A stretch of DNA of 13,405 nt from a bacterium (lineage in GTDB: Bacteria > UBP15 > UBA6099 > JAJRTR01): NCBI GenBank assembly GCA_024278215.1, contig JAJRTR010000018.1:1-13405 (forward strand). Direction: 5' to 3'. The position numbers and the translations under genes were made by a program. Under the pieces are notes generated by a model. It was not told where the DNA came from, ran no database searches, and saw only the letters and a list, made by a program, of their open reading frames with translations. Below are positions 946 through 13,405 of the stretch, piece after piece; position 1 is the first letter of the stretch, and every line of letters begins with the position of its first letter.

Positions 946-993
946 AGCTACGGAAAAAGTGTGACTTAAGAAATTTTGGAAGAGGTAACAACT

Positions 994-2007
994 TTGGCGG
1001 ATGAGAAAGTTCTGGATTCGGTACTTAAGCAGATAACGAAGCAGTTCGGCGAAGGTTCTATAATGAAGATGGGCGACTCACGGGTGAGGGCTACCGAGTC
1101 CATCCCCACAGGATCGCTTTCACTTGATATGGCGCTCGGCATAGGCGGAGTGCCCAAGGGCAGGATGATAGAAATATTCGGCTCCGAAGCTTCAGGAAAG
1201 ACCACGCTTGCTCTGCATATTGTTGCGAACTGCCAGAAAATGGGCGGTACCTGCGCTTTCATTGACGCAGAACACGCCCTTGATCCCGTATACGCCAATA
1301 ATCTTGGTGTAGATATCGACAATCTTCTCATTTCACAACCGGATACCGGAGAACAGGGGCTTGAGATAACCGACATGCTGGTGCGCAGCGGAACCATCGA
1401 GCTTGTAGTGATCGACTCGGTGGCAGCGCTGGTGCCGAGAGCGGAACTCGAAGGCGAGATGGGCGACTCACACATCGGACTGCAGGCCAGACTCATGAGC
1501 CAGGCACTAAGGAAGCTCTCCGGCAATGTCAGCAAGACGAGAGCATGTATTGTGTTCATCAACCAAGTCCGCGAAAAAATCGGTGTGATGTTCGGAAGCC
1601 CCCTGACGACACCCGGCGGCAGAGCCCTGAAATTTGCTTCCTCGGTACGCATACAGGTCAGCAGGATTGAGAATCTCAAAAAAGGAACCGAGATTATCGG
1701 TTCGAGGACAATTGCCAAGGTGGTGAAAAACAAGTTCGCGCCACCCTTCAGGAAAGCCGAGTTCGATATACGATTTGGCGAAGGCATCTGCCCCTACAGC
1801 AATACGCTGGACCTTGCGCTACAGGAAAAGATTGTCACCCAGCGGGGTTCCTGGTTTACCTACGGAGATGAACGTATCGGCCAGGGCCGCGAAAAAGTGC
1901 GGTTAACATTGAAAGAAAGTCCGGATATGTACGAGGAGATAAATGCTAAAGTGCGCGAAAGCCTGGGGATAATACCCAAAAAGGAAGATGAATCGTCAGG
2001 CGAGTGA
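994..2007 (+). CDS. recA: RecA recombinase
   Basis: RecA forms ATP-dependent filaments on single-stranded DNA. It drives strand exchange in recombinational repair and, in SOS-bearing bacteria, triggers LexA cleavage. The product is 337 residues, close to the usual 340-355. The N-terminal helix carries [13 protein letters not shown]. The Walker A is GSEASGKTT (about residues 63-71), the catalytic-glutamate segment [10 protein letters not shown] follows (about 89-98), and loop L2 is in [20 protein letters not shown]. The C-terminus is short and acidic. TTG at 994 is chosen because GAGG lies 8 nt upstream and the protein then starts MADEK like other RecAs; an in-frame TTG at 976 lacks a good ribosome site. 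Oddities are SPLTT instead of the usual N/SPETT in L2, and GSEAS instead of GPESS in Walker A. No recX follows; rny is the next gene. Confidence 0.98.
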
Positions 2008-2355
2008 TTTTGCGCGTTGCTCAGCGTTGTTCCGGCTTCGACTTTCTGCCTCTTTCCATATATACAAAGTCACAAAACAGCTGAATTTAGGGAAATATAC
2101 CCTGAAGGCGCCTGGGTAGCCGGTAGTTTCTCATTGTTTCATTATTATCGGCGATTTTCATTTCGTGTCGATTACCCGGTGAGTAAGGACTATATCCGAA
2201 ACGGATCAGCCCGCGTATTTCACCGGCGGCAGTGTGGTTCACGGCAATGTACTTTGCTTTTAAAGGGCGATTCGTACAGCCTGAACCAGCCCGGAATGAA
2301 TGCTCCCATGAATTTCTCAAGAGATTCATGACGGCGCTTGCTTTCGGAAGGGGAG
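2008..2355 (+). other. Non-coding gap between recA and rny
   Basis: About 350 bp without a convincing gene. Short open frames cross it on both strands (for example 2017-2331 plus and 2087-2329 minus), but their translations show no family features. There is no intrinsic terminator with a T-run after recA, so read-through into rny is possible. Visible elements are a small hairpin ATCCG-AAA-CGGAT (2194-2206) and the strong 24-nt hairpin at 2307-2330. I found no confident promoter here. Confidence 0.6.
2307..2330 (+). promoter_or_regulatory. 24-nt hairpin in the rny leader
   Basis: CATGAATTTC (2307-2316) pairs with GAGATTCATG (2321-2330) through 10 pairs including one G-U, closed by a UCAA tetraloop. 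It ends 20 nt before the Shine-Dalgarno stretch of rny. It is not followed by a T-run. It could be a regulatory or RNase-sensitive structure in the rny mRNA; the function is inferred only from position. Confidence 0.5.
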
Positions 2356-3906
2356 GTGAGCAGCATCAACACTGTAATCCCAGTACTGGTAGGATTGTTG
2401 GCACTTGTCGCCGGACTCGCGGTTGGATACCAGATGGCAAAAAAGGCATTCGACGCGCGGGCGGAACTGCTCAAGGCAGACACTGAAAAAGTTGAGCGTG
2501 ACGCACGCAAAGAAGCGGAATCCAAGGCCAGAGAAATAATCATCAACGCCAAGGACGAATCGCACAGCATCATGAAAAATGCCGAGCGCGACGCACGCAG
2601 AAAACAGAGTGAGATCGACAAGCTGCAACACCGCCTGAACCAGAAGGAAGAGAATCTCGACAAACGTGCCGAGACGCTCGAAAAAAAGGAAGACAAGATC
2701 CGCGCAAGAGAGGAGAGGTCCGTGGCCCTCGAGAAACAAATCGAGGAGGCTCTCGCGGAACAGAAAAGCAAACTCCAGGAGATATCAGGGTTCACTGCGG
2801 AACAGGCCCGCGACTATCTCTTAAGTTCCATGGACAAAGAGCTGCAGAAGGAATACGCAACCAAGATCAAGGAATACGGCGACCGTATGAAGCACGAATC
2901 GAGCCGCCGCGCCCAGCAGATCATCTCGATGGCGATCCAGCGTTGCGGGGTAGACCATGTATCTGAAAGCACGGTCTCGGTAGTCGCTCTTCCGAGCGAC
3001 GACATGAAGGGCCGCATTATCGGACGCGAGGGCCGCAACATACGCGCCTTCGAAACTCTCACAGGTGTCGACCTCGTCGTCGACGACACACCTGAAGCAG
3101 TTGTCATTTCCTCGTTCGACCCGATCCGCAGGGAAGTGGCGCGACTCTCGCTGGAGAAACTCGTCTCCGACGGTCGCATCCACCCCGCACGTATCGAAGA
3201 GGTTATCGAAAAAACACGTGTGGAACTGGACACTACCATCATCCAGGAAGGCGAAAAAGCATCTTTCGACCTCAAAATCACCGACCTGCACCCCGAGTTG
3301 GTCAAACTGATCGGCAGATTGAAGTACCGCACCAGCTACGGACAGAATGTGCTCCAGCACTCGATCGAAGTGGCATTGCTTGCCGGCGCCATGGCGGCAG
3401 ACCTGGACGTTTCGGTCCAACTGGCAAAACGCGGCGGACTCCTCCACGACATCGGCAAAGCTGTCGATTTCGAGGTCGAAGGCCCCCACGCTCTCATCGG
3501 CGGCGACCTTGCAAAGCGTTACCGCGAACACAAGGGTATCGTCCACATCATCGCCAGCCACCACATGGACATCGAGCAGCAGACGATCGAAGCCATTCTT
3601 GTGCAGGTGGCCGACGCCATCTCGGGCTCGCGCCCCGGCGCGCGCCGCGAAGACCTCGACTCCTACATCACTCGACTCACACGTCTCGAAGACCTGGCGA
3701 CGGAATTCGAGGGTGTCGACAAAGCTTTCGCTATCCAGGCAGGCCGCGAAGTGCGCATCATGGTCAGGCCCGACCAGATCGACGACGACACAGCGATCAT
3801 CATGGCACGTAACATCGCCAACAAGATCGAGCATGACCTGTCGTATCCCGGTCAGATCAAAGTCAATGTTATACGCGAAACACGGGCGATCGAATACGCG
3901 AAGTAA
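2356..3906 (+). CDS. rny: Ribonuclease Y
   Basis: RNase Y is a membrane-anchored endoribonuclease that starts mRNA decay in many bacteria lacking RNase E. The product is about 516 residues, the usual size (B. subtilis 520). Domains counted from the GTG at 2356: transmembrane helix (about 6-26), a long charged coiled coil (about 32-150), a KH RNA-binding domain with [10 protein letters not shown] (219-228), and an HD phosphohydrolase domain with H335 and the metal-binding LLHDIGK (H364, D365). The C-terminal segment ends in [11 protein letters not shown], as in the family. The start is uncertain. GTG 2356 overlaps the best Shine-Dalgarno (GGGAGGTGA, 2351-2359). TTG 2338 has no well-spaced ribosome site. 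An ATC at 2365 is ideally spaced. It follows recA on the same strand, a neighbour pair also known in Bacillus, and ends at the terminator at 3972. Confidence 0.97.
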
Positions 3907-4288: not shown

Positions 4289-5239
4289 TTAGTTGCCGGT
4301 GTCTTCTGTTCTGGGGTGATACTTTTTGTGGAAGGCGGTCTCTTCGGCGCGCCACTTGTGTTTTTCAATGAGTTTTACGTATGTCTCCGCGTTTTTTATT
4401 GCCTTCTCGTCGACCGGCACGAAATGTCCGTCGATCAGTTGGAATGCGAATTTGAATGCCGCGAAGTCTTTATCCTTGTGCGCGTTGAGCAGTGTTTTGC
4501 GAATCCTGGCGATCATTTCCGGTGGCACGGTGCGCCAGGCGACAAAGACCCATGCGGGCGACGCTTCCGTGCATACCAGAGGTTCGAAATCTATATCTTT
4601 TCTCTGTGTCTGGCCCGAAATTCGCATGACGGATGAATATGCGATGAACGAATCTATATCACCGTTCGTAAGTTCTTCGACAAGATTTGTTACGGGTGCG
4701 TCGGTCACATAATTGATGGATGAAAAGAATTCGTCGAGCGGTTCGTCTACGCCGTTTGTGTACATGATGTATCTCATGGGTATCAGACGAGGGCCGGCCC
4801 ATTTTGTGCCGCGAAGCTGCTTGATGTTCTCGAATTTGCCTTTTTTCGTGTAAACACATTGCTGGAGAGTGGTTTTTCGATCAATGGCGAGCATGAAAAG
4901 GGGGATAAGGTCTTTTTTCCCGCTCAGCCTGTATTCGGCGTACTCATCGCCGTTTATATAGCTGATGTGAGAGCCGCCTTTCTGAAAATCTTCCAGCACA
5001 AGATCTATTATTTTGTCGCCGTAACGGTAGACAAGCTTCTTTGATGTAATGTTCGCGTCGAGTTTTTCCCCGAGAACCCGCGCAATATCTTCAAGGTATT
5101 TTGTGATCGCGGTATTTTCGAGGCCTTCCACCATCGGCACGGCCAGCACGTAGTTCTCACCCGACGCGTGTACCGGCATCACAGAGAGGATGAAAGTGAA
5201 AAAACATATTGTACAGGTTGAAAAAAATATAGTTTTCAT
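4289..5239 (-). CDS. PhnD-type periplasmic substrate-binding protein (orphan)
   Basis: A 316-residue secreted protein of the type II periplasmic binding fold, closest in pattern to the PhnD/phosphate-phosphonate ABC transporter binding family. Residues 1-26 form a Sec signal peptide (basic start, aromatic/Cys-rich core, cleavage near VHA-SG); no lipobox is seen. The mature start YVLAVPMVEGLEN, the hinge-like GGSHISYINGDEYAEY (about 88-103), the block FENIKQLRGTKWAGP (about 136-150) and VEELTNGDIDSFIAY (about 187-201) match the family's layout. Conserved ligand residues are not clearly retained, so the substrate is unknown. No permease or ATPase gene is adjacent, so it may feed a distant transporter or act as a sensor. 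ATG 5239 has GAGG 11 nt upstream. It has its own promoter at 5263-5291. Confidence 0.75.
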   Translation of the reverse strand: MKTIFFSTCTICFFTFILSVMPVHASGENYVLAVPMVEGLENTAITKYLEDIARVLGEKLDANITSKKLVYRYGDKIIDLVLEDFQKGGSHISYINGDEYAEYRLSGKKDLIPLFMLAIDRKTTLQQCVYTKKGKFENIKQLRGTKWAGPRLIPMRYIMYTNGVDEPLDEFFSSINYVTDAPVTNLVEELTNGDIDSFIAYSSVMRISGQTQRKDIDFEPLVCTEASPAWVFVAWRTVPPEMIARIRKTLLNAHKDKDFAAFKFAFQLIDGHFVPVDEKAIKNAETYVKLIEKHKWRAEETAFHKKYHPRTEDTGN

Positions 5240-5378: not shown

Positions 5379-5395
5379 ACCGTACTTCGCACGGT
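5379..5395 (-). other. Hairpin at the end of the PorV-like gene
   Basis: On the minus strand ACCGTGC (5395-5389) and GTACGGT (5385-5379) form a 7-bp stem with one G-U pair and a GAA loop, starting on the last base of the stop codon. The following sequence is GCCCCACG, with TTGTTTT only about 15 nt later. It is at best an atypical terminator for the surface-protein operon. Confidence 0.4.
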
Positions 5396-6891
5396 CAGAT
5401 TCCCAACAAAGGAATCCCGGTCGGCAACGAGGTTATTCTTCCATACGGGTCGAGCTGGAACTCCGACTCGCCTTCCTCATGCTCGGTGTTATCTTCATAA
5501 GCGGGTATGCTGCCCTGGTAATACATTAGCGGATCAGATGACATTTTCGTCGTCCCGGTCGCCTCTTCAGGAGGTATGACATTTTCAATGGATTCCGGCT
5601 TTTGGGATACGGACGGCGAACCTTCCATCTCGAATTCCGATTCGAACTCCGGCTCTGGTGTTTTTTCCATAATCGTTGCCGGCGCGGCGATTTCCGATGC
5701 TTTTTTAAGCATTTTCACTTCGCCTGTGTTTTCCTCTTCCGCAACGATTTTTTTCTTTTTATCACGTGAAGACTTTTTGTTTTTTGTTTTTTTGTCTTTG
5801 GCTTTTGCCGAACGTTTTTTCTTCGGCTTTTCGGTTTTTTCATCGGTGACATCTTTTTTGCGTTTCGATTCAGGTCTTTTCGAGCGCGAAGGTTTCGCTT
5901 TCTCTTTCGCTGGTTGTTTCTTTTTCGGCAGGTCGAGTTTCGGTTTGGGTTTGCGGCGCGAGGAAGGTGTGAGGTAACTTACGGAAATTTTGGACAGGTT
6001 GCCTGATTCGTCGTCGTTGTTGAAGGCGTAGTCGACCTGGAAGCTGTCGTAATTGAGGCCGACGCCGGCGGAGAATTCGCCGTCGTTGCTGCCGAGGCGG
6101 GCAGTGAAGTTCTGCGCAAGCGTGTATTCCGCGCCGATAGAGAAAAGAGTGTCGTCGAGGTAGTCAGTGTCAAACTGAGCGGAAAGAAGCAGTTTTTCGT
6201 CCATAAACCTGTCGGAAGCGCCGAGCCGGATGTTGAAGGGGACGACATCCGTGCCGATGTCCATGTCGGCGACGTTCTGGAAGACGAGTCCGACGCGGCG
6301 GTTTTCGTTGAATTTCTGCATGAAACCGATGTCGAAGCCGATGCCGGACGCGCTGTAGCCTGCGACTTTCTGTTTTACTGATTTTATCGTAGCGCCTGCC
6401 GACAGGCCGTCGCGCATACGCCAGGGCACGGCATAGGATAGTGAAAAAGCGAATTCGTCGGAGTCGATGACGTCGGTAGGCACCAGGCGCCCGGTGGTGG
6501 AATCCGTACCCGTGACAATAGCGTTGCCGAGTGTGGAATATACGAGATTAAAGCCGAAAGTCGAGTTTTCAAGAGGCAGGGCAAAGCTGAGTGTCTGTGT
6601 TGTGGTGTCGAGGTCGAAAACGGAACGTGACGAGCGCGTGGAAGTGAATTCGTTGCCGCGCAGGTAATAGAGGCCGGCGGGGTTCCAGTATACGGCGCTG
6701 ACGTCGTCGGCGAGTCCGGAGAAGGCGTTGCCCATGCCGAACACGCGGGCGGAGGATCCGTCGATAAAGAAGTCGGTCACAGCGAACGACTCGCCGCTCT
6801 GCTGCGCGGCGGTTGCGAGGTTCACAGCCATAGCGAGCATCAGCACGGTCGCGATGAGAGTGGTGTTTCTTTTAAGTAATTTGTTTTTCAT
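5395..6891 (-). CDS. PorV/UPF0164-like outer-membrane beta-barrel with lysine-rich and acidic tail
   Basis: A 498-residue exported protein. Residues 1-29 are a Sec signal peptide ending ATA-AQQ. Residues 35-75 carry the family hallmark SSARVFGMGNAFSGLADDVS followed by AVYWNPAGL, shared by PorV/PorQ, UPF0164 and FadL-like barrels. Alternating beta-strand pattern continues to about 308. Known PorV proteins are outer-membrane partners of type IX secretion that accept cargo C-terminal domains. The protein does not end with the barrel. Residues 312-381 are about half Lys/Arg, then 382-480 are Glu/Ser/Pro-rich and acidic, and the tail is a short hydrophobic LPTGIPLLGI. ATG 6891 has GAGG 12 nt upstream. 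It lies 53 bp downstream of the giant surface-protein gene on the same strand, so cotranscription is likely. Role as its secretion or anchoring partner is inference. Confidence 0.82.
   Translation of the reverse strand: MKNKLLKRNTTLIATVLMLAMAVNLATAAQQSGESFAVTDFFIDGSSARVFGMGNAFSGLADDVSAVYWNPAGLYYLRGNEFTSTRSSRSVFDLDTTTQTLSFALPLENSTFGFNLVYSTLGNAIVTGTDSTTGRLVPTDVIDSDEFAFSLSYAVPWRMRDGLSAGATIKSVKQKVAGYSASGIGFDIGFMQKFNENRRVGLVFQNVADMDIGTDVVPFNIRLGASDRFMDEKLLLSAQFDTDYLDDTLFSIGAEYTLAQNFTARLGSNDGEFSAGVGLNYDSFQVDYAFNNDDESGNLSKISVSYLTPSSRRKPKPKLDLPKKKQPAKEKAKPSRSKRPESKRKKDVTDEKTEKPKKKRSAKAKDKKTKNKKSSRDKKKKIVAEEENTGEVKMLKKASEIAAPATIMEKTPEPEFESEFEMEGSPSVSQKPESIENVIPPEEATGTTKMSSDPLMYYQGSIPAYEDNTEHEEGESEFQLDPYGRITSLPTGIPLLGI
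5749..5958 (-). other. Lysine-rich low-complexity segment of the PorV-like protein
   Basis: This encodes residues 312-381, in which roughly half the residues are Lys or Arg, in KKK and KPK runs. It begins right after the last recognisable barrel strand (KISVSYL). The plus strand shows a matching T-rich stretch. It may bind peptidoglycan, lipopolysaccharide phosphate or nucleic acid, or the acidic segment that follows. Confidence 0.85.
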
Positions 6892-6944: not shown

Positions 6945-9900
6945 TTACTGCTTGAATATTGTCAACTTCCCTGTTTTAGTGGTCGTGCCGCGGCTGGTTG
7001 TTGCAACCAGCCTGAATGCGTATATGCCGTTACCGACTATGTGGTTGGACAGGTCGAGGCCATACCACAGGAATTCATTGTAACCGGCATCCGTAAAGAC
7101 TTGGGTTTCCGTGTGGACGAGTTTGCCGGAACGGTTATATATTTCGAGAGTTACCGTTGCCATACTGTCGGCGATCTGGAAAGCGATGCGGGTGGGCTCG
7201 CCGGTGCGCGGATCGAAGATGCCGGGTCCGCTGAAAACGTCGCGCAGAGTCGAGCCGCCCGCGACTTCCACGTCCCATTGCGTCGTCTGCTCGTTCAGGT
7301 TGTAGTCCTTCACAGAGAGTTCGACCGTGTATTTACCGGCAGGCAGCCCGCCTGGATATACTGTGCTGCTCGGGTACCATTTGATGACGCAGTCGGTTGC
7401 GGAAGAGCAATCCGTCGTGTCCGGTGAACTCGAACCGGCTGTAACCGGCTCGCCACTGGAATTTTTCACAGTGACGGCTATCGAGCTTAGATCGACGCCG
7501 ACGCCCTCGTCGCTGAGGCTGACGTGCAGCCTTATTTCGTCGGGATCGACATAGTCGCCGTCGATGATATTGTCGTGATAATTGTCCGTGGAAGCGATGT
7601 AATCCTCGATAGTCGGCGGCACGCGGTCGTCGGATTTGAAGTATATCGAGAAGGTGTCGCCGTAGTTATAGGTTTCGTTTGTGAGTTTGATAGTGACGAC
7701 AGCCTGCCCTTCGGCGGTCGAAGCGATGTAGGCCTCGACAAAACCGGTGGAGTCGGTTGTGAGTTGTTCGTCGGGCGTTATTGACACGGCTGTCGAGTAG
7801 CCGGAGATGCTCGCGTCGATCTCGATGGGTTCGTCCGATATGGCGTTGCCGTACATGTCGTAGACTCGCACCCTGATGATGCCGCGTTCGGAGCCGTCGG
7901 CGGTGATGCGCTCGAGGCCGGAACTCTGGGTGTATGGATAGTCGATAATGGAAAGTTCGGTGCCGCCGTTGTCGTCTACCTTTTGAACGCTGGATTTCTG
8001 TACGTCCGCGGGCAATTGATCGGTGTCGGTTTTTTGTGTTGTTGTCACAGTCAGTGCCGAAACATCGTAGGGGTCCGCCGGGTCGATCGTGTAGCTCTGG
8101 CCGACGGAAGTGAGACCGGTGGATGTGAAAGAGAGACTCGCCTGGCTGGATGATGTAACAGCCTTCGTGTCGTAGTAATAGAAGTCCACAGATTCGGAGC
8201 CGGCGCTGATCTTAACGGAAGACACAGACGACGAAGTCGAAGTCGGATACCTGAATTCGCCGGTGGAAGTATTGGTCGTCGAAAGGCTTATGGTGACATC
8301 TGAGGTCGGGGTGACGGTGTTGCCGTACTGGTCGCGGACGCCGATCTGGAATTTGCCTGAAGGCGTTCCGGCAGTGAGCGGCGACGCGGGGCTCGTGAGT
8401 AGAACAAGCGTATACTCGGCGTCCGGCACGAAGTTGATAACGGCAGTGCCGCCGATGTCGGTATAGCCGACGCTGTCGCTGTCGGTCAGGGACAGGGTAA
8501 CGGTCTGGTATACGCTGTCGGAGAGGGGGATGGTGAAGGTGCCGCTGGCGGCGCGCGCGGCGAGCTGGTTTGTCTGAAGCCCAGAAAGCGCCGTGCCTAT
8601 TGTCGGAGTCGCGAATGTCGGTGAATCCGAATCCACTGATCCCGTCGCGATAATCGTGAATATATCATTACTGTTTGTCACAAGGTTACCGTCCGCGTCG
8701 CGCACGTAACATGTGATGTTGGTGGACATGCCGACGGTAGTTGTCGCATAAGACGATGCGGAGAACTCGACTTTTTTCGGTGCGCCGGGCGCGAAATAGA
8801 TCGTGCCGGAAGCGGTGTCGCCAATGGAAGATTGCGCGTCGACATCGACGGATATAGTCTCGGAAACCGTATCCGTTATGGTGAGTGTAAGCTTTCCGGC
8901 GGTAGTGCTCGCATCAACTATCTGAGAGCTTACAAAGATGTCTATGGTGCCCTCGGTGGCGCTGGTTATAGCCGCGGTTCCGCTGACCGTTACAGTCATT
9001 GTCCAGCTTCCGGTGTCGATGAAATTGCCGTAATCGTCATAAGTTTCGATATAAAACGTGGCCGTTGCATCGGTCGACGTGTCGGCGGTAGTCAGTATGA
9101 TCTGCGTGGGCGTGTCGGTCGTGACAGTTATAGGAAGGTCGGTCGTGTTCGACGCGTGATGCTGCGGCAGGAGTTCGTTGAGCGCGGTGATAGAGGCGAG
9201 TATTTCCTCGCCCGGCGGCGTCTCGACAGTGTCCTCGATAATGATCTGCGCGGTGCCGTCGGTGAGGTAGCCTGTGACAGCCGTGTAGGTGGCGGACATC
9301 AACGCGGTGTTGTCGGGCGATTGCGAAGTGAGAGTGCCGGAGTAAACGTGTTTCTGCGACGCCGGGCTGACGGAACCGCCGGTCATAGAGAAACTCACGC
9401 CGATGTTTCTGGCCGGGCCTGTGCTGATGGCCATGCCGTCGTTGTCGTAGACGGTGACCGTGAGCGGCTCGGCGGATGCGCCCGCGACCATCGTGCCGTC
9501 CTGGGCGGTCAGCGCGATATAGTCTGCGGCGACATAGAGAGTCTGCGTGCCGAAGAACTGGTAATCTTCAGTGATGGTCGACAGGTCGATGGGGCCGATG
9601 TCGACGAGGTCGACCCATTGATCGTCGTCGTAATCGACGTCCTTGATGCTCAGCCAACGTGTGGATGTCGCGACTTTGAACTTGTAGAGTCCCTGCTGGT
9701 TTATCGGGTCGACCTCGACAAACATGTCGGGATAGACCCTGTCGCCGGTGACGGACTCGAAGTAGAAGTTGGTCGTGTTGCCAAGGCCGGAAATGCCGGT
9801 GGGAGTTGAAGTGGCGAACTGGACATATATGCCGACATTGGTCTGGTATTCCAGGCCGCCGCGGAGAGCGTAGTTGCCGGGTTCGGGGGCGGCCGGTATG

Positions 9901-12900
9901 GTGCCGATGTTGCCGTTTTCGCCGATGAGTTTCAGATATGTCTGGCCGTTGCCGGCGCCACCGGGTTCCACGGAGTTAGGCGGAGTTACCGCGTCGATTG
10001 TGTCATAGCCCGATTTAGTTATTGTCAGTCCGGCGGCGGACCACGTGTTGAAATAATACATATTCAGATTCGTGCCCAGGCTGGAGTAGGCGGGTGGAGT
10101 GCCGCCGTGCGCGAGTGTCGCGCCTGTTATCGGGTTGTTGTACTGGTCGTAAAGTTCGACAACCAGCGGGAACTCGAGAGGAACACCCGTGTCGTAGGTG
10201 AAGTCCGGGACGACCACAGTGCCTGTCGCGGAAACCCCGCTCGCCGCGGCGCAGCCGTATACAAAACCCTGTTTCCTGTATTGTACATAATAATTGCCGT
10301 TCGAATGCCCGAGATACCACGCCGGGCCCGCGGCGTCGTAGACCGGTGATACGGCGGGTGTCACTTCCGAACTGCACACGGAATCGGAATAGAGTTTCAC
10401 GGTGTCGGTGCTGCCGAATGCAAGAGTGTTGTTCAGTTCATCTTCGAGCGAGTCGATCATTATCGTATATTCAAGATCGTCGCCCCCGGCGGTGATCCAT
10501 GCGGGTGTCGATTGAGTGGTTGTATTTACATTTATGGAAGCGTCGTCGATTCGTTCCATGTAGCCGGTTTTCAGCAGTTTCACCCAGTGTGCGCCTGTGG
10601 TCTGTGGAGCGATATAGAAAGTAGACGAGGCGGCGTACCATGTCGGGCCGTAAGCCGGGGCCTCCTCGGCGGTGCATGAAGCGTCTGTGCAGATAGTGAT
10701 AGTCTCGGAGCCGTCGAGATCGACGCCGTAGCCGAGTTCCGTAATGATGCTTGCCGTGGCGCCCTGCACAGTGATCTGGTACATGAGGCCGTCGCCGCCG
10801 GTCTGCGTCCAGCCGGGTGAAACCTGCGCCGTGACGGCTGCCGTGATGGTCGCGCCGTCGATTGTGTCGATAAAGCCGTCGCTCTGCACCTCGATTCGTT
10901 TACCGCCTGTCGTGGCGGGCGCGATATACCATGAAGTGCCGGAGAACTGTGATGTAAGCGGTGCCTCGGTCGAGCCGCAGGACGGGTCGAGACACACGGT
11001 GATCGTCTCACTTCCATCGGCGGTGACAGCAACGCCGATCTCTGTTTCCATCATGCCCGTGCCGCTCTGCACGAGAATCTGGAAGGGGAGTCCGTCGCCG
11101 CCCGGGCCGTCCCATGCGGGCACGGCCCTCGTCGTGTTCGACGTCGCGGCGATCTGGGAGCCGTCTACGGTTCGCACGTAGCCGGGTTCGCTGATGCGCA
11201 TGTAGTAATTGCCGTCGAGTGAGGGAGAGATGAACCACGCGCCGGATGCAGCGCTCCAGAACCGCGCGAGTGGCGATTGCGGGTCGCCGCCGCTCGAACA
11301 GTCGAACGCGGCGCATATCTCGACAGTTTCGTCACCGTCGAGTGTCAGCGCGTTGCCGAGTTCGTCCTCGAACGCGCCCGCGCCGCCCGCGACCATGATA
11401 AGATACTGCAGACCGGCATACTGGTTCGATGAGCCGATGACCGGCGCGACGGCGCTGGTGGCGTAGGCGTCGAAATAAAGGATAGTCTGTCCGCTTGTCG
11501 CGGGCTGAAACGCCGCCGCGATGCCGCTGTTGGAAACTTCCGGATTGATGAAACCTGTTTTTCTTATTGTCAGCAGGCCGTTTGTCGATGTCGCCCAGAC
11601 GGCCATGTTCGCGTTCTCGTAATCCGGGGCACCGCCGTTGAAGGTGAGAGTATCCAGTCCGGTCGTGTCCGTCGCGTTGCCGAACTCGTCGGCCATGTAT
11701 ATTTTCAGCGGGTATTTGAGACCGTCCGTGTCGGCCTGCGTCCAGCCGGGCATCACCTGCGGGCCGGACGCGTTCGGAGCTATCGAAGTGTTGTCGATCG
11801 TGTCGACGAAACCGGTTTTGTACATCTTCATCCACGCGGTGGATGTGCTCAGGGGTGCGATGTACCACGACGACGTCAGTGTGTCCCATGTCGGGCCAAG
11901 AACGGGCGACTCCGTACTCGAACAATCGCTCGCCGTACATACGGCCAGAGTTTCCGAGCCCGCCAGGGTGAGGTCCGTGCCGAATTCGTTCTGGAAAACG
12001 CTGCCTGTGTCGTCGACCCTGATCTGGTACATGAGGCCGTCGGCGGCGGCCTGCGTCCAGGCGGGCATCTGCTGCGATGCCGTCGACGCGGTAATGCTCG
12101 CGCCATCGCAGGATTCGATGAAACCGAGATCGTATATTGCAATGTATTTTGTGCCGGTGGAGGCGGGCGCGATGTACCACGAATCGGTGTCGAAGTTGGA
12201 AATAGCCGGCGTTTCCGTCGCTGTGCAGGCGGCGTCGGTGGTGACGCTGACGACTTCGTTGCCGTCGAGTGTAATCGCCGCGCCGATCTCGGACTCGACG
12301 GCTGCCGCGCCGCCCGTGACTTTTATCTGATACTGAAGTCCGTCGCCGGTAGTGTCGTCCCAGTCGGGCGTTTCCTGTGCGGCGGCCGGATCGAGATTGC
12401 GCACTGTACTGTCCGCTGTGCTGACGAACCCTGTGGTCGAGATATGCACGTAGCGCGCCGCGCCGGCGACGCTCGGCGCGATAAACCACGAACTGCTCGC
12501 TGCCGACCACACGCTGCTCGCGGGCGTTTCCGGGCCGGGCGCGCCGCAGCCGACTGCGTTGCAGATTAGAATCTCCTCGGTGCCGTCGAGCGCGAGTTGG
12601 TTGCCCAGTTCGTCTTCATACAAGCCCGCCCCGCCTGTAATTTTCAGAAGGTATTCGAGGCCGCGGTATGTGTTCGCGGAACTGCCGATTGTCGGCGCGG
12701 CGGCGTTCTGCGCGTAGTTCCCGAATGCAAGTACCGTCTGCGAATTCGTCGCGGGCTGGAAGGCGGCGGCCAGGCCGGTGTTTGTGACTTCCGTGTTGAC
12801 GTAACCTGTTTCGGTGATTCTCAGTTGGGCGTTTGTGTCCGTGGCCCAGACAGCCATGTTCGCACTCGAGTAATCCGGGGCAGTCGAGTTGAAGGTGATC

Positions 12901-13405
12901 GAGTCCAGCACGGCGATATTCATCGCTGTGTCGAGTTCGTCGCCGACATAGACTTTGAGCGGGAACTTCAGCCCGTCGGCGGCGGCCATCGTCCATTCGG
13001 GAATCGCCTGCGGGCCCGACGCGGAGGGCGTTATGGCCACGCTGTCTATGGTATCGACATAGCCCGATTTATACATTTTTATATAACGTGAGCTTGTGCT
13101 CGCGGGCGCGATGTACCACGCGGTGCCGTCCCATTCCGGACCGACCGAAGGCGCTTCCGTGCCGGTGCAGGTGCCGTCTGTGCAGACATCCATGGATTCT
13201 GTGCCGTCGAGCGACAGGTCGTTGCCCATTTCGTCCTGGAACTTGCTGCCCGTGTCGACGATTTTGATCTGGTACGGGAGGCCGTCCGCACCCGACCACG
13301 CAGGGCTGACCTGTGTTGTATTCGATGTCGTGATGCTCGAGCCGTCGCAGGTTTCGATGAAGCCGAGATCATAGGCGGCCAGCCACTTATTGCCAGTGCT
13401 CGCGG
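6945..13405 (-). CDS. Giant modular surface protein with tandem beta-repeats, Ig-like domains and FlgD/type IX-like C-terminal domain (5' end outside window)
   Basis: An open frame of at least 2152 codons that continues past the right edge, so the true start and signal peptide are unseen. Layout from N- to C-terminus: about 12 repeat modules of about 100 residues (9540-13405), each with DGL-Y-I, ELG-LDG, WYIAP and GF-DT-DG motifs; then five invasin/Big-type segments marked by D-x-GN turns (DDYGN, DADGN, DQYGN, DMYGN) between about 7630 and 9539; then a further beta domain starting DRVPPTIEDY (about 7260-7628); then a C-terminal FlgD-type domain (6948-7244). Composition is Thr/Ser/Gly/Asp-rich with few Lys, typical of secreted adhesins. 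Cysteines occur mostly as pairs. It is followed after 53 bp by the PorV-like gene. It is probably exported and displayed; adhesion is a likely but unproven role. The ATG at 13229 is internal, not the start. Confidence 0.88.
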   Translation of the reverse strand, partial: ASTGNKWLAAYDLGFIETCDGSSITTSNTTQVSPAWSGADGLPYQIKIVDTGSKFQDEMGNDLSLDGTESMDVCTDGTCTGTEAPSVGPEWDGTAWYIAPASTSSRYIKMYKSGYVDTIDSVAITPSASGPQAIPEWTMAAADGLKFPLKVYVGDELDTAMNIAVLDSITFNSTAPDYSSANMAVWATDTNAQLRITETGYVNTEVTNTGLAAAFQPATNSQTVLAFGNYAQNAAAPTIGSSANTYRGLEYLLKITGGAGLYEDELGNQLALDGTEEILICNAVGCGAPGPETPASSVWSAASSSWFIAPSVAGAARYVHISTTGFVSTADSTVRNLDPAAAQETPDWDDTTGDGLQYQIKVTGGAAAVESEIGAAITLDGNEVVSVTTDAACTATETPAISNFDTDSWYIAPASTGTKYIAIYDLGFIESCDGASITASTASQQMPAWTQAAADGLMYQIRVDDTGSVFQNEFGTDLTLAGSETLAVCTASDCSSTESPVLGPTWDTLTSSWYIAPLSTSTAWMKMYKTGFVDTIDNTSIAPNASGPQVMPGWTQADTDGLKYPLKIYMADEFGNATDTTGLDTLTFNGGAPDYENANMAVWATSTNGLLTIRKTGFINPEVSNSGIAAAFQPATSGQTILYFDAYATSAVAPVIGSSNQYAGLQYLIMVAGGAGAFEDELGNALTLDGDETVEICAAFDCSSGGDPQSPLARFWSAASGAWFISPSLDGNYYMRISEPGYVRTVDGSQIAATSNTTRAVPAWDGPGGDGLPFQILVQSGTGMMETEIGVAVTADGSETITVCLDPSCGSTEAPLTSQFSGTSWYIAPATTGGKRIEVQSDGFIDTIDGATITAAVTAQVSPGWTQTGGDGLMYQITVQGATASIITELGYGVDLDGSETITICTDASCTAEEAPAYGPTWYAASSTFYIAPQTTGAHWVKLLKTGYMERIDDASINVNTTTQSTPAWITAGGDDLEYTIMIDSLEDELNNTLAFGSTDTVKLYSDSVCSSEVTPAVSPVYDAAGPAWYLGHSNGNYYVQYRKQGFVYGCAAASGVSATGTVVVPDFTYDTGVPLEFPLVVELYDQYNNPITGATLAHGGTPPAYSSLGTNLNMYYFNTWSAAGLTITKSGYDTIDAVTPPNSVEPGGAGNGQTYLKLIGENGNIGTIPAAPEPGNYALRGGLEYQTNVGIYVQFATSTPTGISGLGNTTNFYFESVTGDRVYPDMFVEVDPINQQGLYKFKVATSTRWLSIKDVDYDDDQWVDLVDIGPIDLSTITEDYQFFGTQTLYVAADYIALTAQDGTMVAGASAEPLTVTVYDNDGMAISTGPARNIGVSFSMTGGSVSPASQKHVYSGTLTSQSPDNTALMSATYTAVTGYLTDGTAQIIIEDTVETPPGEEILASITALNELLPQHHASNTTDLPITVTTDTPTQIILTTADTSTDATATFYIETYDDYGNFIDTGSWTMTVTVSGTAAITSATEGTIDIFVSSQIVDASTTAGKLTLTITDTVSETISVDVDAQSSIGDTASGTIYFAPGAPKKVEFSASSYATTTVGMSTNITCYVRDADGNLVTNSNDIFTIIATGSVDSDSPTFATPTIGTALSGLQTNQLAARAASGTFTIPLSDSVYQTVTLSLTDSDSVGYTDIGGTAVINFVPDAEYTLVLLTSPASPLTAGTPSGKFQIGVRDQYGNTVTPTSDVTISLSTTNTSTGEFRYPTSTSSSVSSVKISAGSESVDFYYYDTKAVTSSSQASLSFTSTGLTSVGQSYTIDPADPYDVSALTVTTTQKTDTDQLPADVQKSSVQKVDDNGGTELSIIDYPYTQSSGLERITADGSERGIIRVRVYDMYGNAISDEPIEIDASISGYSTAVSITPDEQLTTDSTGFVEAYIASTAEGQAVVTIKLTNETYNYGDTFSIYFKSDDRVPPTIEDYIASTDNYHDNIIDGDYVDPDEIRLHVSLSDEGVGVDLSSIAVTVKNSSGEPVTAGSSSPDTTDCSSATDCVIKWYPSSTVYPGGLPAGKYTVELSVKDYNLNEQTTQWDVEVAGGSTLRDVFSGPGIFDPRTGEPTRIAFQIADSMATVTLEIYNRSGKLVHTETQVFTDAGYNEFLWYGLDLSNHIVGNGIYAFRLVATTSRGTTTKTGKLTIFKQ
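6948..7244 (-). other. C-terminal FlgD/type IX-sorting-like Ig domain of the giant protein
   Basis: The last about 99 residues have the pattern FDP...PTRIAFQI...VTLEIYNRSGKLV...GYNEFLWYGLDLSNHIVGNGIYAFRL...GKLTIFKQ (segments shown). This matches the FlgD Ig-like/type IX type A sorting family (NP-TxI-F-L, V-L-IYD-GR-V, W-G-D--G--V--GIY-y-L, final K-x-x-hydrophobic-K). In Bacteroidota such domains direct cargo across the outer membrane and are removed on anchoring. Whether this one is cleaved is unknown. Confidence 0.75.
9540..10790 (-). repeat. Degenerate third cassette A3-E-B3-C3
   Basis: A3 (10479-10790) is a good copy of A2. It is followed by a divergent module E (10182-10478; SLEDELNNTLAFGS, WYLGHSNGNYYVQYRKQGF), then B3 (9858-10181; LEFPLVVELYDQYNN, GGTPPAYSS), then a weakly related C3 (9540-9857; starts RGGLEYQTNVG, contains an acidic DVDYDDDQ stretch). 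The order differs from A-B-C-D, and similarity fades towards the Ig-like region, consistent with an older edge of the array. Confidence 0.65.
10791..12038 (-). repeat. Super-repeat 2: A2-B2-C2-D2
   Basis: Second copy of the cassette, 1248 bp: A2 11724-12038, B2 11415-11723, C2 11094-11414, D2 10791-11093. Shared DNA words, such as the one at 12020 recurring at 10772 (exactly 1248 bp = 416 codons apart), show duplication of whole cassettes rather than single modules. The frame is intact throughout. Confidence 0.85.
12039..13283 (-). repeat. Super-repeat 1: four-module cassette A1-B1-C1-D1 in the giant protein
   Basis: The four modules start at the DGL-type motif: A1 12975-13283, B1 12663-12974, C1 12342-12662, D1 12039-12341. 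A, C and D share LDG-E--VC and WYIAP/WFIAP motifs. B lacks cysteine and carries TFN--APDY--ANMAVWAT and AAAFQPAT-SQT. The cassette is about 415 residues, and each module is far closer to its counterpart in the next cassette than to its neighbours. The end of a preceding D0 module is visible at 13284-13405. Confidence 0.85.

Follow-up and report, generated by a model that had tools for sequence, protein, structure and literature searches.

A PorV-family outer-membrane barrel with a charged C-terminal tail encoded beside a giant surface-protein-like gene in UBP15

In the Bacteroidota, the outer-membrane barrel PorV binds type A CTDs, and the barrels SprF and PorP bind type B cargo, for which they are the proposed anchor. 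How type B cargoes of the type IX secretion system (T9SS) are held at the cell surface was long unclear, and PorP-PorE complexes are the current model. The PorP/SprF shuttle gene of Flavobacterium is commonly located directly downstream of the gene of its type B cargo (PMC12618676). PorE, whose domains are an OmpA_C domain of the peptidoglycan-binding OmpA type and TPR (PMC5053529), is the presumed bridge between PorP and the wall, and PorP-PorE has been proposed to tie the cargo to peptidoglycan (PMC9143113).

Here we analyzed a whole contig of 13,405 bases (C193; referred to as the window), which belongs to a 4.5-Mb genome of 207 contigs from the candidate phylum UBP15. The window encodes a barrel that resembles SprF in its position relative to SprB, as its gene directly follows that of a giant, repetitive, surface-protein-like product with a C-terminal domain as the would-be sorting signal. 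Like PorP, this barrel should require a connection to peptidoglycan. In contrast to the PorP/SprF-type B pairs, however, PorP_SprF (PF11751) was absent among the Pfam matches of the window barrel with E-values up to 1, and the domain of the cargo is FlgD_ig, while the CHU_C/type B CTD remained below the threshold in the giant protein (17.3 bits, cut-off 27). Moreover, PorE is a separate protein in the PorP system, whereas the periplasmic link would be fused to the barrel in the window system. A dedicated shuttle and anchor barrel for the upstream giant protein, equipped with a built-in periplasmic arm, is the reading that we favor over its rivals, at about even odds. If it is true, PorV-like barrels with fused peptidoglycan-binding or spacer arms would provide the same link in one chain, outside the Bacteroidota.

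A PorV-family barrel with a C-terminal tail

The barrel gene (P0001) occupies positions 5395–6891, the coordinates given by an earlier sequence-only reading. It lies on the minus strand and is an intact gene of 498 codons for amino acids. Residues 1–28 (6808–6891, minus strand) resemble a signal peptide, with a basic start and a following hydrophobic helix that were read from the sequence, and a helix was predicted for residues 2–28. The protein scored 109.2 bits against the PorV/PorQ family model NF033709 (cut-off 90) and 37 bits against the Toluene_X/FadL model (cut-off 29.7). It fell far below the cut-offs of the equivalog models for PorV (NF033710; 35.3 vs. 250 bits), PorQ (54.8 vs. 220 bits), and PorV2 (53 vs. 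325 bits). An AlphaFold2 model, which was built on an alignment of 11 sequences, predicted 14 barrel strands with pLDDT values mostly between 70 and 92. The resulting FadL-type barrel with an N-terminal hatch covers residues 36–309 (5965–6786, minus strand; predicted strands E79–91 to E298–309). T9SS PorV and the FadL/TodX channels were the top structural matches of the model (Foldseek E = 4.6e-11 for 6h3i_F), with Z = 29.7 for PorV 8gl6_F (271 aligned residues, rmsd 4.8) and Z = 31.0 for FadL (259 residues, rmsd 2.8). Based on these family and fold matches, the earlier assignment as a PorV-like barrel holds, and we have hardly any doubt that the window protein is a PorV-family barrel with a FadL-type fold. 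It shares the 14 strands and the N-terminal hatch with the members of the PorV/PorQ family, including T9SS PorV of Flavobacterium and Porphyromonas. It differs from T9SS PorV by its low scores in the equivalog searches, by its pairing with one neighboring cargo, and by an additional tail of 190 amino acids. In the alignment with solved PorV, residue 402 of the PorV chain is reached at residue 315 of the window protein.

The tail of approximately 190 residues follows the end of the barrel near residue 309, as had been noticed before, and from residue 313 on the AlphaFold2 model shows pLDDT values below 50, indicative of disorder. The three parts that had been described for it are all seen in the sequence. 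Residues 312–381 (5749–5958, minus strand) form a basic block with a net charge of +27 and a pI of 10.9, and residues 382–498 (5398–5748, minus strand) comprise an acidic, Glu/Pro-rich block and the end of the protein, with a net charge of −18 and a pI of 4.1. The last 11 residues (488–498, SLPTGIPLLGI; 5398–5430, minus strand) are a short hydrophobic C-terminus, which is not conserved in the orthologues. This split of charges exceeds what is expected by chance from the tail's own composition (p = 0.0005, 2000 shuffles). Barrels with an even number of strands have both ends in the periplasm, as is the case in the solved FadL and PorV structures. Since the predicted strand number of the window barrel is even, its disordered tail would very probably exit on the periplasmic side.

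No known domain, including any recognizable peptidoglycan-binding domain, was detected in the window tail by Pfam searches, and a match to RR_TM4-6 (E = 0.09) was rejected as compositional. The G+C content at third codon positions is 0.73 for the barrel but drops to 0.51 for the tail (5398–5955), and a 15-bp tandem repeat is located at 5774–5806 within the basic block.

The giant neighbor and extended barrels in other phyla

The open frame directly upstream of the barrel gene (6945–13403, minus strand) encodes 2152 amino acids of a giant surface-protein-like product up to the contig end, where it is cut, and contains repeats as well as Big_1-like and FlgD_ig domains. The repeats are diverged and share a WYIAPAS-like motif, and an 88-nt unit is present in five copies with 60–74% identity. 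FlgD_ig scored 39.2 bits in this protein (cut-off 27) and 46.6 bits in a further search, and the C-terminal FlgD_ig domain (6993–7199, minus strand; PF13860, E = 6.7e-10) is its probable sorting domain. A giant gene, with up to 3880 codons, was found directly upstream of the barrel gene in the window and in all five loci of tailed orthologues. The giant cargo-like neighbor postulated by the sequence-only reading was thus confirmed, with a FlgD_ig-ended gene adjoining the barrel gene in each of these loci. Across phyla, 44 of 78 PorV-like genes were directly preceded by a FlgD_ig-like ORF, compared with only 5 of the 342 other ORFs (p about 2e-32, odds ratio 87), and in 57 of the 64 FlgD_ig-like ORFs the domain was found within 15 residues of the C-terminus. 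It is likely that the barrel is dedicated to the neighboring cargo in this operon-like pairing. Tail-less PorV-like relatives also occur beside FlgD_ig-like giants, both in the window genome (C34, C117) and in genome G005, and the tail is therefore not needed for a pair of cargo and barrel as such.

The remaining part of the window contains, downstream of the barrel gene, a gene for a phosphonate-binding-like periplasmic protein (4289–5239, minus strand; PF12974 just above the cut-off), which is absent beside the orthologues of family f2. The minus strand further carries the first part of an EF-Tu gene along with four tRNA genes (3–221 and 321–723), and the plus strand carries recA with a ribonuclease-Y-like gene (976–3906). 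An Rfam search over the window retrieved the four tRNAs only.

That proteins of the PorV type end with their barrel, as had been assumed, does not apply as a family rule outside the Bacteroidota. We compared 105 PorV-like barrels, all distinct and complete, which were drawn from many phyla (genomes as well as contigs) and are a sample of best hits and not a census. In 46 of them, the chain extended beyond the barrel by more than 60 residues, and approximately four in ten of the sampled barrels of uncultured phyla carry extensions. Eight of these 46 are UBP15 proteins. The other 38 stem from other lineages, and their extensions contain TPR (25 barrels), FlgD_ig (6), OmpA (4), and SH3_3 domains (2). 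OmpA-tailed barrels were found at loci L107, L095, L084, and L079, those with SH3_3 at L081 and L085, and those with TPR at many loci of Elusimicrobia. In several uncultured phyla, barrels fused to OmpA, SH3, or TPR domains are often encoded directly after a FlgD_ig-ended gene. The PorV-like barrels of Elusimicrobiota, Firestonebacteria, FCPU426, KSB1, and others thus belong to the same family as the window barrel and often share its position after FlgD_ig-ended genes, but they end in folded OmpA, SH3, TPR, or FlgD_ig domains, whereas the window barrel ends in a disordered charged arm. Peptidoglycan is the ligand of OmpA-family domains, and SH3 domains of bacteria typically bind to the wall. 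Therefore, the C-terminus of the relatives with such extensions should face the periplasm. We found no description of PorV-family barrels with extensions of this kind in the open-access literature.

UBP15 also contains a second group of tailed barrels with 568–573 amino acids (L027–L030, in G001:C186, G003:C39, G004:C42, and G006:C386). Their tails consist of Pro/Lys linkers and a twice-repeated domain of approximately 65 amino acids without a Pfam match. A relative of this group in genome G005 (L008, 287 amino acids) is tail-less.

Conservation and possible role of the tail

Five orthologues of the tailed barrel were found in UBP15/UBA6099 MAGs, four of them from one genus (g2) of family f2 and one from family f3. 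A scan of contigs with the single protein gave no matches; a scan with an alignment did. Each of them has a tail of 175–188 amino acids in one open frame. This excludes a frameshift that joins two genes and shows that the tail is present in homologues of the same phylum, two points on which the original description of the tail could have failed. Including the window, tail length ranges from 175 to 190 amino acids in six genomes, which represent three families only. The composition varies, with Pro/Ala/Glu/Lys mixtures in f2, KKKEEE-like repeats in f3, and a Lys-rich part followed by a Glu/Pro-rich part in the window. We dropped the idea of a conserved two-block charge pattern because the split was not significant in any of the five orthologues (shuffle test, p = 0.48–0.82) and is a property of the window protein alone. 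An excess of basic residues in the first 40 positions of the tail amounts to +2 to +3 in f2 and is nil in f3.

Among the four g2 orthologues, the barrel had a pN/pS of 0.034. In the tail, this ratio was 0.079 over the first 36 codons, 0.36 over the middle, which has 10 gapped columns in the alignment, and 0.09 over the last 55 codons. This purifying selection indicates that the tail is real, that it is translated, and that it is under selection, with ends that are constrained and a middle that resembles a spacer. A conserved end motif across families was rejected, as a pairwise similarity between f2 and f3 (p = 0.011, three comparisons) was not confirmed by a profile of the g2 tail end, which scored the f3 and window tails not above shuffled controls. 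Judged from these comparisons, what is conserved is a charged, disordered tail of about this length, which is a feature and not a sequence.

The likeliest mechanism in view of these observations would start with the FadL-type barrel in the outer membrane, whose extracellular loops may bind the giant protein at its C-terminal FlgD_ig domain. The barrel would collect the giant protein and keep it at the cell surface, and the tail of 190 amino acids would reach down into the periplasm as a disordered charged arm. This arm would be composed of a basic collar near the membrane, a spacer of conserved length but free sequence, and a contacting end. The likeliest contact of this arm would be peptidoglycan or a peptidoglycan-bound periplasmic partner, in which case it would serve the barrel in cis as PorE, a separate protein, serves PorP. 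Kept length, a drifting middle, and constrained ends are the pattern expected of a spacer that makes contact at either end, and we also count the OmpA (4 of 38), SH3_3 (2 of 38), and TPR extensions (25 of 38) of the related barrels in favor of a tether. On the other hand, the tail has no recognizable peptidoglycan-binding domain, and its end is conserved within one genus only. Accounting for both sides, a contact of the tail with the wall or a wall partner may well exist, although we place it just short of an even balance. Among the functions that the sequence-only reading had suggested for the tail, an envelope tether is plausible and the best supported, in view of the relatives that end in OmpA or SH3 domains, but its variant with LPS phosphates as ligand found no support. 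A docking arm for the giant cargo, also suggested there, would be unlikely for a periplasmic tail and a cargo that finally lies outside the cell, even though the arm might capture the cargo early in the periplasm.

The drift in composition could also mean that a passive extension of low complexity, which arose by the expansion of simple repeats and has no specific partner, forms the tail and that the barrel works alone. The sharp differences between families (Lys, then Glu/Pro in the window; Pro/Ala/Glu in f2; KKKEEE in f3), the 15-bp tandem repeat in the basic block, the undetectable sequence conservation across families, and the existence of tail-less paralogues would all agree with such an origin. 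However, a passive tail fits poorly with purifying selection on both tail ends within g2, with the similar length of 175–190 amino acids in three families, and with its retention in six of six orthologues found, and we regard it as possible but doubtful. Binding of the giant cargo in the periplasm prior to export, followed by its transfer to the barrel, is a further explanation, as is a basic block that wraps around lipid or LPS phosphates. Here, the adjacent cargo gene and the position of the basic block in the window right at the membrane, together with the weakly basic tail start in f2, have to be weighed against the small size of this basic excess in f2 and its lack in f3. LPS in particular is a poor candidate, as inner-leaflet lipids, and not LPS, face the periplasm. 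Periplasmic binding of cargo or lipid by the tail is thus rather improbable.

The tail might instead be a handle for detaching the loaded barrel from an SprA-like translocon, on which a motor in the inner membrane or a hub in the periplasm would pull in a TonB- or TolA-like manner. Half-size SprA-like barrels occur in seven of seven genomes of the phylum, and the separation of PorV from SprA has been proposed to be forced by an input of energy (PMC10994853). Domain II of TonB and TolA is, like the window tail, a low-complexity charged or Pro-rich spacer that spans the periplasm. The form of these spacers drifts just as freely and may be Pro-rich, helical, or disordered, and two Pro-rich segments of opposite charge are present in E. 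coli TonB (PMC12204202). However, TonB and TolA are anchored in the inner membrane and have a folded C-terminal domain, whereas the window tail extends from an outer-membrane barrel and has no homology to them. Furthermore, no conserved motif for contact with a motor was found in the tail, and searches for the motor components GldL and GldN were empty, as they were in the controls. Considering all this, a role of the tail as a handle is very improbable.

SprA-like barrels and other type IX components in UBP15

No SprA_N domain was detected in the seven UBP15 genomes by a search that was positive in the more distant genome G007. All seven genomes, however, encode several members of a family of half-size SprA-like proteins with 1100–1500 amino acids. 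The SprA model TIGR04189 matched this family partially, weakly, and below its cut-off (E down to 3.7e-9), and a sequence search of the family against PDB chains gave no match. A profile of the family matched proteins of approximately 2000 amino acids in other phyla, and all four of these that were checked contain SprA_N. For the predicted structure of one member (G001:C45, mean pLDDT 76), solved SprA chains took the first four ranks in Foldseek (E = 2.5e-14 to 2.6e-11), followed by the next structure at E = 3.4e-7. According to VIA-align, SprA was level with small porins by Z-score (16.5, 706 residues, rmsd 7.1), but the alignments covered 706–710 residues of SprA and at most 463 residues of any other structure.

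Since these genomes encode half-size SprA-like barrels, the outer-membrane part of this secretion route may have a version that is simpler than the machine of the Bacteroidota. Tentatively, one may envisage a stripped-down type-IX-like outer-membrane export in UBP15, with half-size SprA-like translocons, FlgD_ig-ended giants, and dedicated PorV-like shuttles, some of which would have a built-in periplasmic arm for anchoring or pulling that replaces the separate PorE and ring parts of the Bacteroidota; we consider this scheme speculative and not very likely. The GldL/GldN motor and ring models had no matches, and the control genomes were equally silent. Peptidase_C25, which also covers peptidases other than PorU, was found in the window genome (C43, C151) and in four of six relatives.

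In the window genome, the SprA-like genes are located on other contigs (C137, L167:4053–7796; C86, L168:5039–8410; C51; C186) and not beside the tailed barrel gene. Relatives carry SprA-like genes at G001:C45 (L169:6140–9634), G004:C52 (L170:9437–12931), and G002:C40 (L174:2120–5863), and in G001, G002, G004, and G006 the SprA-like genes adjoin tail-less PorV-like genes.
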